In this document: positions 13,482 to 19,053 of the stretch, piece by piece
How the letters are laid out: each line of letters opens with the position of its first letter
Numbering within the stretch: the stretch's first letter is position 1
Source: Nitrospira sp.
GTDB taxonomy: Bacteria > Nitrospirota > Nitrospiria > Nitrospirales > Nitrospiraceae
Assembly: GCA_005116885.1 (NCBI GenBank)
Contig: SWDP01000002.1
Span: 159,023-195,995, forward strand
Direction of reading: 5' to 3'
Length of the DNA: 36,973 bases
Notes under the pieces: generated by a model
The model's database searches: none
The model's input: the letters and a program-made list of their open reading frames with translations, nothing else
What the model was told of the DNA's origin: nothing
Position numbers and translations under genes: made by a program

Positions 13482-13606
13482 GCAGGATGCTCAAAAAGGC
13501 TGTCCAGCGCGGCTGCAGCCGATGGAAGCACCGGAGGCGTAGCCTCTGGCTACGTTGAGGATGCTTTCGAGGCGAGAACGAAGCTGGCGGGCTTTTCAGC
13601 ATCCTG
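13482..13606 (-). repeat. Palindromic repeat, family A, copy 3
   Basis: A 125-bp element in reverse orientation to copies 1 and 2. Its ends are a perfect 10-bp inverted repeat (GCAGGATGCT / AGCATCCTGC) and its centre is CGTAGCC-TCT-GGCTACG. It directly abuts the stop codon of the JAMM protease gene. With copy 2 it brackets the mobile patch 9557-13481 in inverted orientation. Confidence 0.85.
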
Positions 13607-14119
13607 CTATATCGTTGTGATGTGGGCCTGCGTGACCGTTCCCCCTGTAATCCAGTATCCGCGGATATCCGGCTTGGATTTTTCCATCAGAGAGATGAGC
13701 AGATAAGCGGGGATGGGCAGGTTAATTTTTGGCCAGATTTCTTCGTAGTCGGTGGCGATCTTGATATCGGTAGTCGAAGGGCGTGCCGGGTCGTGAGGAT
13801 GAGAGTGGTAGACCACTTGCAGGTCGAGCCCTTTGTTTCGAATGTCTTTCTTCGCCACGGAAAAATCTTGCATATCCATCACGAAGGCGATCTCGGCTCG
13901 TTCGGCTGGTGATAGTCGTTCCAAATGCGCCACCTTTGCCGGATCGAAGGACGACAATTTCTCAGCTCCTTCGAGTGCCACAATATTCTTGATCCGGTAG
14001 ACATGGGTGACAGTCCCGTTGGTTCCAGCCAGAAGCCCGCAACATTCATAGGGGTCGAGTTCCCTGGCGTGGGCCACCATGTCGTCGAGGATCGATTGAG
14101 GGATGATGAGATCAGACAC
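13607..14119 (-). CDS. JAMM/MPN+ metalloprotease for sulfur-carrier maturation
   Basis: A zinc isopeptidase-like protein of about 170 residues. The JAMM motif is complete: catalytic Glu 25 in YECCGLLAG, His 105 and His 107 in VVYHSHPHDPARPS, Ser 115 and Asp 118. In bacteria this family (Mec, QbsD, HcyD) releases amino acids from carrier proteins or trims residues beyond Gly-Gly. Here both carriers in the cluster end with extra residues, so trimming is the likely job. I prefer GTG 14119 (VSDLIIPQ), which fits family starts; GTG 14152 would add 11 residues. Neither has a strong ribosome-binding site. It is separated from the rest of the cluster by a palindromic repeat. Confidence 0.85.
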   Translation of the reverse strand: MSDLIIPQSILDDMVAHARELDPYECCGLLAGTNGTVTHVYRIKNIVALEGAEKLSSFDPAKVAHLERLSPAERAEIAFVMDMQDFSVAKKDIRNKGLDLQVVYHSHPHDPARPSTTDIKIATDYEEIWPKINLPIPAYLLISLMEKSKPDIRGYWITGGTVTQAHITTI

Positions 14120-14200
14120 GGCTAGCAGACTACTGAGAAAAAAATTTGGCACGGAAGAAATTCATTGGCCCGCGTACCTTTGGCCACAGGAGCTGGCGAT

Positions 14201-14324
14201 ACAGAATGCTCAAAAAGACCGTCAGCGCGGCCGCAGTGAGCAAGGAGGCGAGGCGTACCCTTTGGGTACGTTGAGTCTCTGAGCGATGCGAGAACAAAGC
14301 TGGCGGACTTTTTCAGCATTCTGT
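14201..14324 (-). repeat. Palindromic repeat, family A, copy 4
   Basis: A 124-bp element in the same orientation as copy 3. Its ends are a perfect 10-bp inverted repeat (ACAGAATGCT / AGCATTCTGT), again changed in sequence but still paired, with centre CGTACCC-TTT-GGGTACG. It separates the JAMM protease from the E1-like gene and could attenuate or process the transcript at that point. Confidence 0.85.
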
Positions 14325-14328
14325 TTAG

Positions 14329-15132
14329 TTAGATGGTGCAGCTGACAGTATAGTCCATGCTGAGATTTGTGATCTTCGGATTCTGGCCGCAGAGCGGACA
14401 GGCTGGATCTTTGGGGCGTCTGACTTTTCTGAATTTCATCTCGAGGGCGTCGTAGATCAAGAGGCGATCGGCCAATGTTTCACCGATGCCGAGAATTTCC
14501 TTGATCGCTTCCGATGCCTGAAGAATGCCCATGGTTCCGGCGAGAGCGCCTAACACGCCGGCTTCTTGGCAATTCGGCACGAGTCCTGCCGGTGGTGGCT
14601 CCGGGTAGAGGCAGCGGTAGCAGGGATAGCCGGCATGAGGCTTGATCGTCGTGAGTTGTCCTTCAAACCGGAACATGCTGGCAGAAATAAGCGTCTTTTT
14701 GGCGAAGAAGCAGGCGTCATTCACCAGAAAACGTGTTGCAAAGTTGTCGGAACCATCCAGCACCATGTCGAACTGGGAGACCAGCGAAAGAATATTGTCG
14801 CTGTCGACATTCTGGTGATAGGTCTTGATCGTAATCTCCGGGTTAATTGCGGACAGGGTTTTTCTGCCGGACTCTACTTTCGCCATACCGACCGTTGCTG
14901 TGGAGTGCAGGATTTGGCGTTGTAAGTTCGAAAGATCAACAACATCGCCATCAACGAGACCAATTGTACCCACGCCAGCGGCAGCGAGATAAAGCCCGGC
15001 AGGCGAGCCGAGCCCTCCGGCGCCGATGAGCAAAACTTTGGCCTTGGCCAGCTTCATCTGGCCCTTGCCGCCCACGTCGCTCAGAATAATTTGACGACTG
15101 TATCGTTCTATCTGCTGTTCAGTGAGTTCCAT
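14329..15132 (-). CDS. moeB: E1-like sulfur-carrier adenylyltransferase (MoeB/ThiF family), copy 1
   Basis: 267 residues. It activates a carrier protein's C-terminal Gly by adenylation, ready for sulfur transfer. Visible: opening ERYSRQIILSDVGGKGQ, nucleotide loop LLIGAGGLGSPA near residue 35, DVVDLSNLQRQILH near 63, DGSDNFATRFLVNDAC near 126, and zinc-binding CYRC near 170 paired with CPLC near 246. No rhodanese domain is present, so sulfur must come from elsewhere. About half its residues match the second copy at 17030, which suggests specialisation for different carriers. It is downstream of the NIL-domain gene, after a 108-bp gap with GTGATG palindromes. Confidence 0.9.
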   Translation of the reverse strand: MELTEQQIERYSRQIILSDVGGKGQMKLAKAKVLLIGAGGLGSPAGLYLAAAGVGTIGLVDGDVVDLSNLQRQILHSTATVGMAKVESGRKTLSAINPEITIKTYHQNVDSDNILSLVSQFDMVLDGSDNFATRFLVNDACFFAKKTLISASMFRFEGQLTTIKPHAGYPCYRCLYPEPPPAGLVPNCQEAGVLGALAGTMGILQASEAIKEILGIGETLADRLLIYDALEMKFRKVRRPKDPACPLCGQNPKITNLSMDYTVSCTI

Positions 15133-15138
15133 AAAGTC

Positions 15139-15238
15139 CGTGATCAGTGATGTGTGATGCGCGACGAGTTAGGATTCATAATTTGGTAGAGCTTTCCTTG
15201 AGAGTACCCATCACTCATCACACGTCACTTCTCACTCC
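15139..15238. repeat. GTGATG-rich imperfect palindrome, copy 1
   Basis: The gap between the E1-like gene and the NIL gene has GTGATCAGTGATGTGTGATG near 15139-15159 and CATCACTCATCACACGTCAC near 15208-15227. The second is an imperfect reverse complement of the first. A similar structure lies at 17851-17927 in the same cluster. Confidence 0.6.
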
Positions 15239-15240
15239 CC

Positions 15241-15480
15241 CTATTCCACGACATTCAATTCGATCGGGTCGACGACGACGCCTTTCGTGCGAAGGCCTAC
15301 GATCGCCCGCTCGATTTCTGTGCTGTCGCCGGTCAGCTCAAGATCCATCCATCCGGTGGTTTCACGCACATCGGCGCGCCGGACGTTGGTGACGACTTTG
15401 TACTCGTGGCCGATCTGATAGATCACCGGTTCTTTGATCTTGTCTTCTGGGAACTGAACGTGCACTTTCACATGCGGCAT
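15241..15480 (-). CDS. NIL-domain protein
   Basis: 79 residues matching the NIL fold, a ferredoxin-like domain best known from the C-terminus of methionine ABC importers (MetN), where it binds methionine and inhibits transport. Here it stands alone: [21 protein letters not shown] near residue 18, GWMDLELTG near 43 and a final [10 protein letters not shown] strand. The ATG lies inside the last codons of the MoaD-like gene, with GGAGGT 5 bases upstream. Stand-alone NIL genes are often linked to sulfur-carrier and methionine clusters; a role in sensing a sulfur amino acid or in sulfide handling is inference. Confidence 0.85.
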
Positions 15481-15755
15481 GATGTACCTCCTGCAATGGC
15501 GGGCACGATCGACACTTCGTCCCCGTCTTTGAGCGACGTCTCTTTGCCCTTGAGGAATCGAATGTCTTCCTCGTTGACGTAAATGTTCACAAATCGGCGG
15601 AGCTCACCCGTGTCGTCGCAGAGGCGATCTTTCATGCCGGGATACGCGGTATTGAGCGCCTCGATCATCTCAAGCACGCTCGCGGCTTTTGTTTCGATTT
15701 CTCCCTGGCCCTTGGTCAGCGGGCGTAGCGGAGTCGGAATGCGAACTTTAATCAT
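15468..15755 (-). CDS. MoaD/ThiS-like sulfur carrier with C-terminal tail
   Basis: 95 residues with a beta-grasp (ubiquitin-like) fold: [11 protein letters not shown] at the start, a helix [30 protein letters not shown] and the end [14 protein letters not shown]. After Gly-Gly come five more residues (TSCRM), so the carrier cannot be adenylated until trimmed. In known systems (CysO, QbsE, HcyS) carriers serve cysteine, siderophore or homocysteine synthesis. Its start overlaps the threonine-synthase stop by 4 bases (ATGA) and its end overlaps the NIL gene by 13 bases, so tight translational coupling is expected. Partner enzymes are the flanking E1-like proteins and the JAMM protease. Confidence 0.88.
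15486..15491 (-). promoter_or_regulatory. Shine-Dalgarno GGAGGT encoded by the carrier's Gly-Gly codons
   Basis: On the minus strand the two Gly codons of the MoaD-like C-terminus read GGA GGT, a full Shine-Dalgarno sequence, placed 5 bases before the ATG of the NIL gene at 15480. The same device with the same spacing occurs at 18862-18867. Confidence 0.85.
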
Positions 15756-17002
15756 GAGTCACCACCACCGTTCTTGCCCATTTTAAATGTTTTCTCAAAT
15801 GCAACTAGACTTGGTTGAATGCGAACCGGCCGTCCAACGGCATCGATCACGGCTTCCTGGGTTTTTAAACCGTTTCCGGTGATATAGGCTACGGTCAGAT
15901 CGCCTTTCTTAATCGTGCCGTTCTTCACCAGCTTTTGGAGTACACCGATTGTCACACCCCCGGCCGTTTCTGCGAAGATTCCTTCCGTCTGCGCCAGCAG
16001 TTTGATGCCCTCCACGACCTCGTCGTCTGTCACCATGTCCATGGAACCCTTGCTCTCGGCTGTAGCCTTCAGGGCATAGTACCCGTCTGCTGGATTCCCG
16101 ATCGCCAAGGACTTGGCGATGGTTTTGGGTTTCACCGGTTTGAAAAAATCACGCCCTGCCTTAAAAGCGGTAGAAATCGGTGAGCAACCTTCAGCCTGCG
16201 CTCCGTTGATTTTGGTCCTCACTTCATTGATCAATCCCACGTATTTCATTTCGTGGAGGCCCTTCCAGATTTTAGTCAAGAGCGAGCCGGACGCCATCGG
16301 GATGACGACCTGGTCCGGCGTGCGCCAGCCGAGTTGCTCGACGGTTTCGAATGCCAACGTCTTCGAGCCTTCCGCATAGTAGGGGCGGATATTGATGTTG
16401 ACGAACGCCCAGCCGTGCTCGCCGGCGATTTCGCTACAGAGCCGATTCACATCGTCGTAATTGCCTTCGATCTCGACCACATTGGGTTTATAGATCAAGT
16501 TGCCGAGCACCTTCGCGGCTTCCAGATCGCCCGGGATAAACACGTAACAGCGCATCCCTGCCGCAGCCGCATGAGCGGCGACAGAATTGGCTAGATTGCC
16601 GGTCGAGGCGCAGGCAATCGTTTCAAATCCTAACTCTCGCGCTCTGGTAATGGCGACGGCCACAACCCGATCTTTGAACGAGAGCGTGGGGTGATTGACT
16701 GTATCGTTCTTGATGTAGAGCTCGTCCAGTCCGAGGTGGGCGCCAAGATTTTTCGCGCGCACCAGCGGGGTCATCCCGGCATGCAGGCCGAGAAAGGTGG
16801 GCCCCTCTACCGGTAGGAGATCGGCATAGCGCCAGATGCTATGTGGGCCATCCTGAATCTTTGTGCGGGACACATTCTTCTTGATCTCCTCGTAGTTATA
16901 TTTCACCTCGAGGGGGCCAAAGCACATTTCGCAGACATGGATCGCTTTCGTTGGGTATTCTTTTCCGCACTCACGACAGACTAGGGCTTTCATTGTAGCC
17001 AT
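15752..17002 (-). CDS. thrC: Threonine synthase (PLP enzyme)
   Basis: 416 residues. Threonine synthase converts O-phosphohomoserine to threonine with PLP. An N-terminal zinc-ribbon-like segment (CRECG near 9, CEMCFG near 24) precedes the fold type II PLP domain: schiff-base Lys 110 in [10 protein letters not shown], the phosphate loop near [10 protein letters not shown], and a C-terminal GNGLK. The ATG at 17002 is supported by AAGGTGGAA 7 bases upstream. It is nested between an E1-like enzyme and a sulfur carrier, overlapping the latter by 4 bases. The context allows a second idea, that it uses carrier thiocarboxylate to make homocysteine from phosphohomoserine, but the sequence itself reads as ThrC. 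Confidence 0.92.
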
Positions 17003-17029
17003 GGCGATTCCACCTTACTCAGTCAATAA

Positions 17030-17842
17030 TTACGGCCGGACGGCACAGCCGGCAAACGGATCGCCGTCATCGAACAATTCGGTAATCGTCGGATGTGCGC
17101 CGCACAGCGCACAGTCAGGATTGCGTTTCACTTTAATTTCTCTGAACAGGGTCTTGCGCGCATCGAAATCCAGGAGTCGGTTCGTCAGAGGATGACCGAT
17201 ACCAAGGATGAGTTTCAAGGCCTCTGTGGCTTGGATTGTGCCAATGATGCCGGCTAATACGCCGATCACGCCTGCTTCTTGGCAGGAGGCGACCAGCCCA
17301 GCCGGCGGCGGAGTCTTAAAGACGCAACGATAGCAGGCAGACTGCTTCGGTACAATGGTCGTCACTCGGCCATCGAAACGAAGGATGCCACCGTGGACTA
17401 ACGGTTTTCCAGCAAAAAAACAGGCGTCGTTGATGAGGAACTTGGCCGTAAAGTTGTCGACCCCGTCGATGACAATGTCGTAATCGCTGATGATCTTCAA
17501 CGCATTGCCGGCCGTCAGACGCTCTTCGTACATTGCGACCTGGACGTCCGGGTTCAACGCTTGAATCTTCTCTTTGCCAGAGACGACTTTCGGGCGGCCG
17601 ACGTCCGATGTATGGTGGAGAATCTGTCGTTGAAGATTGGTGAGGTCCACAACATCGCTATCGATGAGGCCGATGGTCCCAATACCGGCTGCGGCCAGAT
17701 AGAGCGCTGCCGGCGAACCAAGGCCCCCCGCGCCGACCAGGAGAATCTTGGCCTTGGCGATCTTCTTTTGCCCCTTGCCACCGACCTCCGGTAGCAGGAT
17801 ATGGCGGCTGTAGCGTGATATTTGATCTTCTGTAAATTCCAT
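17030..17842 (-). CDS. moeB: E1-like sulfur-carrier adenylyltransferase (MoeB/ThiF family), copy 2
   Basis: 270 residues with the same plan as copy 1: SRYSRHILLPEVGGKGQ, LLVGAGGLGSPA, DLTNLQRQILHHT, DGVDNFTAKFLINDAC, zinc pairs CYRC and CALC. It has a slightly longer acidic C-terminus (FDDGDPFAGC). Within an operon that also encodes two carriers, having two E1-like enzymes suggests one per carrier, copy 2 lying next to the cysteine synthase and the ThiS-like protein. The gap to the upstream cysteine synthase gene holds the second GTGATG palindrome; the gap to thrC is 27 bases. Confidence 0.9.
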   Translation of the reverse strand: MEFTEDQISRYSRHILLPEVGGKGQKKIAKAKILLVGAGGLGSPAALYLAAAGIGTIGLIDSDVVDLTNLQRQILHHTSDVGRPKVVSGKEKIQALNPDVQVAMYEERLTAGNALKIISDYDIVIDGVDNFTAKFLINDACFFAGKPLVHGGILRFDGRVTTIVPKQSACYRCVFKTPPPAGLVASCQEAGVIGVLAGIIGTIQATEALKLILGIGHPLTNRLLDFDARKTLFREIKVKRNPDCALCGAHPTITELFDDGDPFAGCAVRP

Positions 17843-17850
17843 TTGGGCTC

Positions 17851-17927
17851 GTGATGTGTGATCAGTGATGCGTGATGGGTTGACTAATACGTAGCGTGCT
17901 CATCACTCTTCACTCATCACCCTTCAC
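17851..17927. repeat. GTGATG-rich imperfect palindrome, copy 2
   Basis: GTGATG-type heptads on the left (17851-17879) and CATCAC/TTCAC-type heptads on the right (17901-17927) form an imperfect inverted repeat in the gap between the cysteine synthase and E1-like genes. It is related to the structure at 15139-15238. Confidence 0.6.
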
Positions 17928-18856
17928 TAGATGTTAAAATATTTTTCTATACTGATATACCGCTCGCCTGTGTCGCACAGGATTGTGACGACGTTCTTAC
18001 CTGGTCCCAGTTCCTGGGCTACTTTCTGTGCAGCGAACACGTTGGCTCCGGCAGAAATGCCCACCAAGAGGCCCTCTTTTTTTGAGAGCTGCTTGGCCGT
18101 TTGATAGGCTTCGTCATCGGTTACGGTCATGACACGATCGATAATGGTCCGGTTCAAGACTTTCGGGATGAAGCCCGCGCCGATGCCTTGAATCTTATGG
18201 GGTCCTGGCTCTCCGCCTGATAAGACCGGTGATCCAGCCGGTTCAACTGCGATGACCTGCACGTTGGGATTCCGCTCTTTGAACAATTCCCCGCATCCGG
18301 TAATGGTGCCGCCAGTCCCTACTGCCGCTACGAATGCATCGATCTTTCCGTCGAGCGCCTCGAGAATCTCGATCGCCGTGGTCTTTTTATGCATAGCCGG
18401 GTTAGCCGGGTTGGAAAACTGATCCGGCATAAAGTATGAGGGATTCTGCGCAATAATGCTTTCCGCCTCGCGGATCGCACCCTTCATCCCTTCCCAGGCC
18501 GGGGTCAAGACGAGCTGCGCGCCATAGGAGGATAAGAGGCTCGCCCGCTCCATGCTCATGCTCTCCGGCATCACGAGAATCAGTTTATACCCACGGACCG
18601 CAGCGACTAAGGCTAGGCCGATTCCGGTGTTTCCGCTGGTCGGCTCGACAATTGTACCGCCAGGCTTTAATGCGCCCAGTCGTTCGGCCTCGTCGATCAT
18701 ATTGAGGCAGATTCGGTCCTTGACACTTCCACCCGGATTGAAGAACTCGACTTTTCCGTAGATTGTTGCCCCGCCAACAGGGGATAACCGGTTTAGGCGG
18801 ACGAGGGGAGTTCGTCCGATGAGTTCGGTAATGTCTTTATGCAGGGTGCTCGTCAC
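17927..18856 (-). CDS. cysK: Cysteine synthase, O-acetylserine sulfhydrylase type
   Basis: 309 residues. It forms cysteine from an activated serine and a sulfur donor, using PLP on Lys 46 (FFNPGGSVKDR). Other blocks: PTSGNTGIGLA near 72, GTGGTITGCG near 180, and HKIQGIGAGFIP near 224, which is characteristic of CysK rather than the phosphoserine-using CysM of actinobacteria. It therefore probably uses O-acetylserine. Starts at GTG 18856 with a 4-base overlap with the ThiS-like gene and GGAGGT 5 bases upstream. Context suggests sulfur may come from carrier thiocarboxylate as well as free sulfide; that is inference. Confidence 0.93.
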   Translation of the reverse strand: MTSTLHKDITELIGRTPLVRLNRLSPVGGATIYGKVEFFNPGGSVKDRICLNMIDEAERLGALKPGGTIVEPTSGNTGIGLALVAAVRGYKLILVMPESMSMERASLLSSYGAQLVLTPAWEGMKGAIREAESIIAQNPSYFMPDQFSNPANPAMHKKTTAIEILEALDGKIDAFVAAVGTGGTITGCGELFKERNPNVQVIAVEPAGSPVLSGGEPGPHKIQGIGAGFIPKVLNRTIIDRVMTVTDDEAYQTAKQLSKKEGLLVGISAGANVFAAQKVAQELGPGKNVVTILCDTGERYISIEKYFNI

Positions 18857-19053
18857 CGGCCACCTCCCATATAAAACAGGAACTCAACCCGGTCGCCGTT
18901 GTTCAAACTGGTGGTGGCGAGGTGGTTCCGGTCCAAGACAGCGTCGTTGACTTCGACGGCAACCATGTGTGGTTCAATTTTTTTGGCCTGGAGAAGATCG
19001 AGGACCGTTCCTCCTGAAATCTCTTCCATCTTCCCATTGATTGTGACCTGCAT
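18853..19053 (-). CDS. thiS: ThiS-like sulfur carrier ending in GGGR
   Basis: 66 residues, beta-grasp fold: MQVTINGKMEEI, helix TVLDLLQAKKI, VAVEVNDAVLDR and DRVEFLFYMGGGR. The C-terminus carries one Arg after the Gly run, so exposure of a terminal Gly requires trimming, presumably by the cluster's JAMM protease. A good ribosome-binding site (AGGAG) precedes ATG 19053 and it is the first gene of the minus-strand cluster. It could serve thiazole synthesis as classic ThiS, but with cysteine synthase as immediate partner, a cysteine-forming role is more likely. No thiG is present in the window. Confidence 0.85.
   Translation of the reverse strand: MQVTINGKMEEISGGTVLDLLQAKKIEPHMVAVEVNDAVLDRNHLATTSLNNGDRVEFLFYMGGGR
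18862..18867 (-). promoter_or_regulatory. Shine-Dalgarno GGAGGT encoded by the ThiS-like Gly-Gly codons
   Basis: Two of the three C-terminal Gly codons read GGA GGT and lie 5 bases before the GTG start of cysK at 18856. The carrier then has to read on through GGC CGG before its TGA, which overlaps the cysK start. Confidence 0.85.

Follow-up and report, generated by a model that had tools for sequence, protein, structure and literature searches.

The window analyzed here, a 36,973-nucleotide (nt) stretch of contig SWDP01000002.1 from a 3.19-Mb draft genome of Nitrospira sp. (83.9% complete), contains a sulfur-transfer gene cluster centered on a gene that we call thrC2, which is predicted to encode a homocysteine synthase of the MetM type. 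Eight open reading frames lie on the minus strand between positions 13607 and 19053 in the order thiS-like, cysK, E1a, thrC2, moaD-like, NIL, E1b, and JAMM, and all of the frames and families reported in that order by the initial annotation were confirmed. Gene frequencies below refer to 61 Nitrospirota loci, comprising 60 fetched neighborhoods and the window.

18853..19053, minus strand: thiS-like sulfur carrier, 66 amino acids (aa), C terminus ..YMGGGR; TIGR01683, 58.1 bits (cutoff, 37.45); 45/61 loci
17927..18856, minus strand: cysK-like cysteine synthase, 309 aa; TIGR01139, 459 bits (cutoff, 351); 51/61 loci
17030..17842, minus strand: E1-like MoeB/ThiF adenylyltransferase "a" (E1a), 270 aa; PF00899 the sole family match; 55/61 loci
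15752..17002, minus strand: thrC2, candidate MetM-type homocysteine synthase, 416 aa; TIGR00260, 301 bits (cutoff, 167)
15468..15755, minus strand: MoaD/CysO-like sulfur carrier, candidate MetO, 95 aa; PF02597, 63.5 bits; TIGR01687 (moaD_arch), 53.3 bits (cutoff, 49.5)
15241..15480, minus strand: NIL-domain protein, 79 aa; PF09383, 52.6 bits; 61/61 loci
14329..15132, minus strand: E1-like MoeB/ThiF adenylyltransferase "b" (E1b), 267 aa; PF00899 the sole family match; 49/61 loci
13607..14152, minus strand: JAMM (Mec/HcyD-like) metallopeptidase; Prok-JAB PF14464, 66.4 bits; motif HSHPHDPARPSTTD; 47/61 loci

The thrC2 product has a four-cysteine motif at its N terminus and the pyridoxal phosphate (PLP) lysine at position 110. 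The cluster CysK scored above the cysK cutoff and below the cysM cutoffs, and a family search found no rhodanese domain in either cluster E1. The JAMM motif, read from the translation, follows HxHx7Sx2D, the rule that we take to define the family, and the gene could start either at the GTG at 14152 or at a later GTG. Exactly these eight genes, in identical order and on one strand, were present in 40 of the 61 loci, and thrC2 was accompanied by moaD in every locus (61/61), the median distance between the two genes being −4 nt.

Four proteins of the genome match PF00291: the cluster CysK, ThrC2, a tryptophan synthase beta chain whose gene adjoins one reading as trpA, and a canonical threonine synthase of 355 aa. 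The separate thrC that the initial annotation proposed to look for is therefore present, and it lies directly behind a homoserine dehydrogenase gene (hom-thrC) and ahead of a phosphoglycerate-mutase-like gene, the names being read from translations. ThrC2 is 34.5% identical to this canonical enzyme, and where a canonical thrC (thrC1) was found in the same stretch (10 of the 61 loci), the order was thrC2-moaD-NIL-thrC1 in all 10. In an alignment of the 61 ThrC2 and 10 canonical ThrC1 proteins, Lys110 was kept in ThrC2 and active-site columns separated the two groups with no or few exceptions. The canonical VNS-NPYR-EGQK segment was replaced in ThrC2 by a different sequence; moreover, GNAGN became ASGSL, STGNTSAS became STGNLAN/HS, GNPASW became GNPADG, and EPASAA became ETAGGV. 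Counted in the alignment, the changed positions correspond to Ser155, Asn157, Arg160, and Asn188 of Thermus ThrC, some of which presumably bind the substrate phosphate. UAG recoding was considered because five genomes showed TAG in frame within thrC2, and it was rejected, as this TAG is the ordinary terminal stop; one locus (L231) has an extra TAG nine codons earlier.

The ThrC2 signature was written as a DNA pattern and searched for in one genome for each species of 84,980; at least 119 stretches matched, 80 of which were used as loci. The listed loci came from Actinomycetota, Cyanobacteriota, Chloroflexota, Acidobacteriota, Planctomycetota, Verrucomicrobiota, Elusimicrobiota, Armatimonadota, and archaea, with at least three from Nitrospirota. 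A motif-bearing ThrC2 frame, in some cases incomplete, was present in each of the 80, and 67 carried a MoaD-like carrier on the ThrC2 strand. The signature R206-P-x-Y209 was present in all 81 rows formed by the window and this outside set, which was itself picked by the signature, and other active-site columns were more variable in the outside set. In 40 of the 80 loci, a SAM riboswitch (RF00162) preceded thrC2 in the same direction, 7 to 173 nt ahead of the estimated start codon, and one further copy lay at 999 nt (L173); in 10 loci there was too little upstream DNA. No match to the SAM riboswitch was obtained in seven Nitrospirota loci or in L118 and L153. The riboswitch represents established methionine regulation and is support independent of the phylum survey described below.

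Four Streptomyces copies, the S. albulus sequence not among them, were 55 to 56% identical to the window ThrC2, and all four have a SAM riboswitch and a MoaD-like neighbor. In a quick tree, from which nine proteins shorter than 380 aa were left out, ThrC2 and the Streptomyces copies formed one set apart from canonical ThrC (SH-aLRT, 100), and the window protein grouped with Nitrospirota. A protein from a "Nitrospirales bacterium" was placed next to one from a genome of the window's order, in keeping with an assignment to Nitrospirales.

The Nitrospira genome encodes a MetH-like protein (PF02574, 305.6 bits, 1,244-aa frame). For MetY, MetZ, and MetB, PF01053 gave four partial matches only, the best at 31.2 bits (cutoff, 27), all in frames that read as aminotransferases or NifS-like proteins; MetX and HcyBio (PF01837) gave no match. 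The complete, separate homocysteine synthase that the initial annotation named as grounds for rejecting the second channel was therefore not found in this genome. Ten genomes of the same genus, seven of them at least 98% complete, likewise contained neither HcyBio nor a PF01053 match above 100 bits, and draft incompleteness therefore does not explain the missing enzymes.

To survey the phylum, 245 genomes were drawn evenly, up to seven candidates per genome were scored, ThrC2 was called present at an E value below 1e-100, and neighborhoods were read in 60 of the genomes. ThrC2 was present in 210 genomes and absent by this threshold in 35. Of the latter, 20 had PF01053 above 100 bits, 6 had HcyBio, and 9 had neither, such that a known route was found in 26; among the 210, PF01053 was found in 56 and HcyBio in none. 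Absence of ThrC2 was associated with any known route (Fisher, 1e-7) and with HcyBio (6e-6), kinship being uncorrected in both tests. HcyBio was confined to two families (five genomes of one, one of the other), each time without ThrC2. Two of the nine genomes with neither route (G018 and G234) are 230-contig drafts and the sole genomes lacking ThrC2 among 62 of the window's family. Three genomes of the survey that are 96 to 99% complete (G166, G188, and G205) lack ThrC2, PF01053 above 100 bits, and HcyBio, and the first two lack any ThrC match; these organisms are possibly auxotrophs or users of a further route.

We conclude that the thrC2-moaD-NIL core very probably encodes a MetM-type homocysteine synthase and its sulfur carrier. 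This reading rests on gene content, linkage, missing alternative enzymes, active-site remodeling, and SAM riboswitch linkage in relatives. The carrier-linked ThrC homologue making homocysteine that the initial annotation proposed is accordingly borne out as a prediction: a channel joining ThrC and carrier is well supported because a canonical thrC lies elsewhere, the active site is remodeled, other routes are missing, and both carrier and riboswitch are linked to the gene. The expectation that such an enzyme would be new does not hold, because MetM of Streptomyces is a homocysteine synthase that already uses O-phosphohomoserine (Hasebe et al. 2024, doi 10.1128/aem.01247-24, as cited in the accessible part of PMC12172450). 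According to the same part of that paper, a SAM riboswitch lies upstream of metM in S. albulus, metM homologues occur in cyanobacteria, and the gene adjoining the Microcystis thrC homologue belongs to the carrier family and is similar to metO.

We infer every chemical step, the carrier trimming, and the role of NIL, as follows. The JAMM protease would trim the MoaD-like carrier back to GlyGly, an E1 would adenylate the GlyGly end, and donor sulfur would convert it to a thiocarboxylate. ThrC2 would then act through PLP on O-phosphohomoserine, with loss of phosphate and placement of the carrier sulfur at C-gamma, rather than water at C-beta, to give homocysteine; perhaps homocysteine would first form as a carrier adduct to be cleaved by the JAMM protein. 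Finally, MetH would convert homocysteine to methionine.

The best matches of the MoaD-like carrier in the Protein Data Bank (PDB), 4n6e_B and 3dwg_C, are CysO structures by title. The window carrier has residues beyond GlyGly; the carrier ended exactly at GlyGly in 20 of the 61 Nitrospirota loci and elsewhere continued for 1 to 18 residues or, in L079, for a whole NIL domain. Freeing GlyGly on an extended carrier needs a protease, and the JAMM gene therefore fits, yet its presence is uncoupled from tail length. Elsewhere in the genome (L012, C11:505460-508699), a single 232-aa frame flanked by frames reading as moaC and moaA appears to be a fusion of MoaD and MoaE, and for this reason the MoaD of the cluster probably does not serve molybdopterin synthesis. 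In a Nitrososphaeraceae archaeon (L162), ThrC2 was found with no free MoaD, but an E1 frame of 454 residues lies in the vicinity; carrier and E1 may form a single protein there, because MoaD-MoeB fusions are reported in Thaumarchaeota (accessible part of PMC11237513).

NIL was assigned by script in 59 of the 61 Nitrospirota loci, by tblastn in L065, and as the MoaD fusion in L079. It is not always beside moaD, an E1 lying in between in L094 and L103. NIL was present in 16 of the 80 listed signature loci and was not found in the listed Streptomyces or cyanobacterial stretches. A sulfur-carrying role is disfavored because the window NIL contains no cysteine and only 16 of 59 NIL proteins contain any. 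By fold, NIL matches the C-terminal domains of MetN, whose NIL domains bind methionine. The most likely role of the protein is that of a small subunit for methionine sensing or for docking. Natural MoaD-NIL fusions with an internal GlyGly were found at L079:7288-7800 and L176:3672-4184, the latter not belonging to the Nitrospirota part of the tree and in a stretch that also holds JAMM, E1, and cysK. The model of L079 shows two folded domains joined by an AIAGG linker of low confidence; the model aligned over both domains with the Thermus "MoaD related protein" 1v8c (E value, 1.7e-8; 172 columns; root mean square deviation, 13), which may be a solved relative of the fusion. When the 10 loci with too little upstream DNA were left out, NIL was present in 2 of 40 listed loci with a riboswitch within 173 nt and in 11 of 30 without one there, L173 included (Fisher, 0.0012). 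That NIL replaces the SAM riboswitch at the protein level nevertheless stays speculation, as supported branches gave only three independent pairs and the sign test was not significant.

Several observations weigh against the homocysteine synthase reading. In vitro, the Microcystis homologue converted O-phosphohomoserine to threonine and also deaminated threonine, and the authors of that study doubt that it acts fully as MetM in the cell (accessible part of PMC12172450). In the phylum, no known homocysteine route was found in 9 of the 35 genomes that lack ThrC2, and a PF01053 protein accompanies ThrC2 in 56 of 210 genomes; PF01053 includes enzymes that do not make homocysteine. No MoaD was found on the thrC2 strand in 13 of the 80 listed loci, in 3 of which the stretch ends there. 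The carrier ended exactly at GlyGly in 16 of the 47 JAMM-containing loci and in 4 of the 14 others, and an association between the JAMM gene and carrier extension was rejected. Finally, the window gave no Rfam match at gathering scores and hence no riboswitch; an upstream SAM riboswitch is not treated as defining the MetM route, because the Microcystis homologue also has none (accessible part of PMC12172450).

If ThrC2 were instead an ordinary threonine synthase, or a bifunctional threonine synthase/threonine deaminase merely coregulated with sulfur genes, its score above the TIGR00260 thrC cutoff would be expected, as would its structure model (mean pLDDT, 85), whose best PDB matches are threonine synthases, and the threonine and alpha-ketobutyrate formed in vitro by the Microcystis homologue (accessible part of PMC12172450). 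We consider this improbable, however, in view of the separate canonical thrC, the altered active-site positions, the linkage to SAM riboswitch and carrier across phyla, and a genome in which no other homocysteine route was found. A role for ThrC2 as a cysteine synthase that uses O-phosphoserine and a carrier, as CysM does with CysO, would suit a carrier whose closest solved relatives are CysO, and cysteate synthases are ThrC relatives able to use phosphoserine. This alternative is less probable still, as the cluster already holds CysK, absence of ThrC2 coincides with homocysteine enzymes, and the SAM riboswitch is indicative of methionine regulation. Chance placement of thrC next to a carrier operon, which the initial annotation had kept as its alternative, is rejected as highly improbable because the eight-gene order and the pairing of thrC2 with moaD (61/61 Nitrospirota loci, and one strand in 67/80 listed signature loci) are conserved; no observation in its favor was found.

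The remaining part of the cluster appears to form a unit of its own. thiS was restricted to loci that have cysK (45 of these 51, compared with 0 of the 10 lacking it) and tracked the second E1 (44 of 49 loci where both E1s are present, compared with 1 of 12 where they are not); of the two parallel channels that had been proposed, two carrier modules with two E1s are upheld in part. ThiG (PF05690) gave no match in the 83.9% complete genome, whereas 14 of 14 control genomes were positive. A search for CysE gave three matches, all under the cutoff, the best (L225) at 94 bits versus 210.65 and reading as a 191-aa hexapeptide-type acyltransferase; a real CysE is still possible because 6 of the 14 controls also gave matches only below the cutoff. 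Since ThiG was not found, CysE was only below the cutoff, and thiS never occurred without cysK, a ThiS thiocarboxylate may feed CysK. We conclude that the thiS-cysK-E1 half represents a second carrier module, which probably serves cysteine synthesis. A complete scheme is more tentative, and we regard it as possible but rather unlikely in full: ThiS thiocarboxylate would serve CysK for cysteine and MoaD thiocarboxylate would serve MetM for homocysteine, each with its own E1; one shared JAMM would mature both carriers, in places freeing MoaD from a MoaD-NIL polyprotein; and NIL would be a methionine-binding feedback subunit, the protein-level counterpart of the SAM riboswitch.

Repeats accompany the cluster. 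Copies of an approximately 120-nt repeat flank the JAMM gene (13483-13596 and 14202-14324; 79 to 86% alike), the inner copy having inverted ends, and the repeat resembles a small mobile or REP element. Immediately before each of the two E1 genes, at 15140-15229 and 17858-17928, one and the same repeat (GTGATCAGTGATGYGTGATG, with a part reading CATCACTCATCAC) folds into a stable hairpin, and both hairpins fold better than shuffled sequences (z, −4.1 and −3.5, respectively). Its 13-nt core also occurs in one genome of the same genus (G161; L026 and L050). The hairpins were rejected as regulatory RNA, being copies of one repeat and having no Rfam match.

The cluster can be likened to the HcyS-HcyD system with MetY of Wolinella, which combines an extended carrier C terminus, JAMM trimming, and a homocysteine product; it differs in that the window synthase is of fold type II and no MetY-like PF01053 protein was found in the genome. 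Like the MetM route of S. albulus with metO (accessible part of PMC12172450), it has a ThrC homologue predicted to convert O-phosphohomoserine to homocysteine, distinct from canonical threonine synthase, beside a sulfur-carrier gene, and in one clade with riboswitch-bearing Streptomyces copies; unlike that route, it adds NIL, two E1s, JAMM, a thiS-cysK half, and carrier residues after GlyGly and has no Rfam riboswitch. With CysO-CysM-Mec of Mycobacterium (accessible part of PMC3227635), it shares a CysO-like carrier, a MoeB-family E1, a JAMM peptidase, and a fold-type II PLP synthase, but the synthase by the carrier is a ThrC relative rather than CysM, no rhodanese was found in the E1s, and the inferred product is homocysteine. 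The DUF39/HcyBio pathway with NIL-ferredoxin (accessible part of PMC5764234) likewise places a NIL domain in homocysteine synthesis, but the window NIL stands alone without ferredoxin, HcyBio was not found in the genome, and six of six HcyBio genomes lack ThrC2. A neighborhood of ThiS/MoaD, E1, JAB, and cysteine synthase was listed in 2006 (PMC1779556, Table 1, row 4c, in the accessible part) and resembles the thiS-cysK-E1-JAMM part, except that its E1 is fused to rhodanese; the accessible text holds no match for "NIL" or "threonine synthase." No report of MetM in Nitrospirota or of NIL beside MetM was found in the literature searched, which covered few subscription papers and is weak evidence of novelty. 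The core MetM reaction is already published; less known are NIL in 61 of 61 loci, the carriers extended past GlyGly, the two E1s, JAMM, and the MoaD-NIL fusions.

At least one more homocysteine pathway was still to be found in 2018, in Aquifex, Pyrolobus, and Acidimicrobium (accessible part of PMC5764234), and the ThrC2 signature makes these organisms easy to check for the ThrC2 route. With this analysis, a gene named threonine synthase by sequence models receives a likely function, and the gap in homocysteine synthesis is filled for many genomes of the phylum. Auxotrophy predictions that see "thrC" alone would be wrong for organisms with ThrC2.

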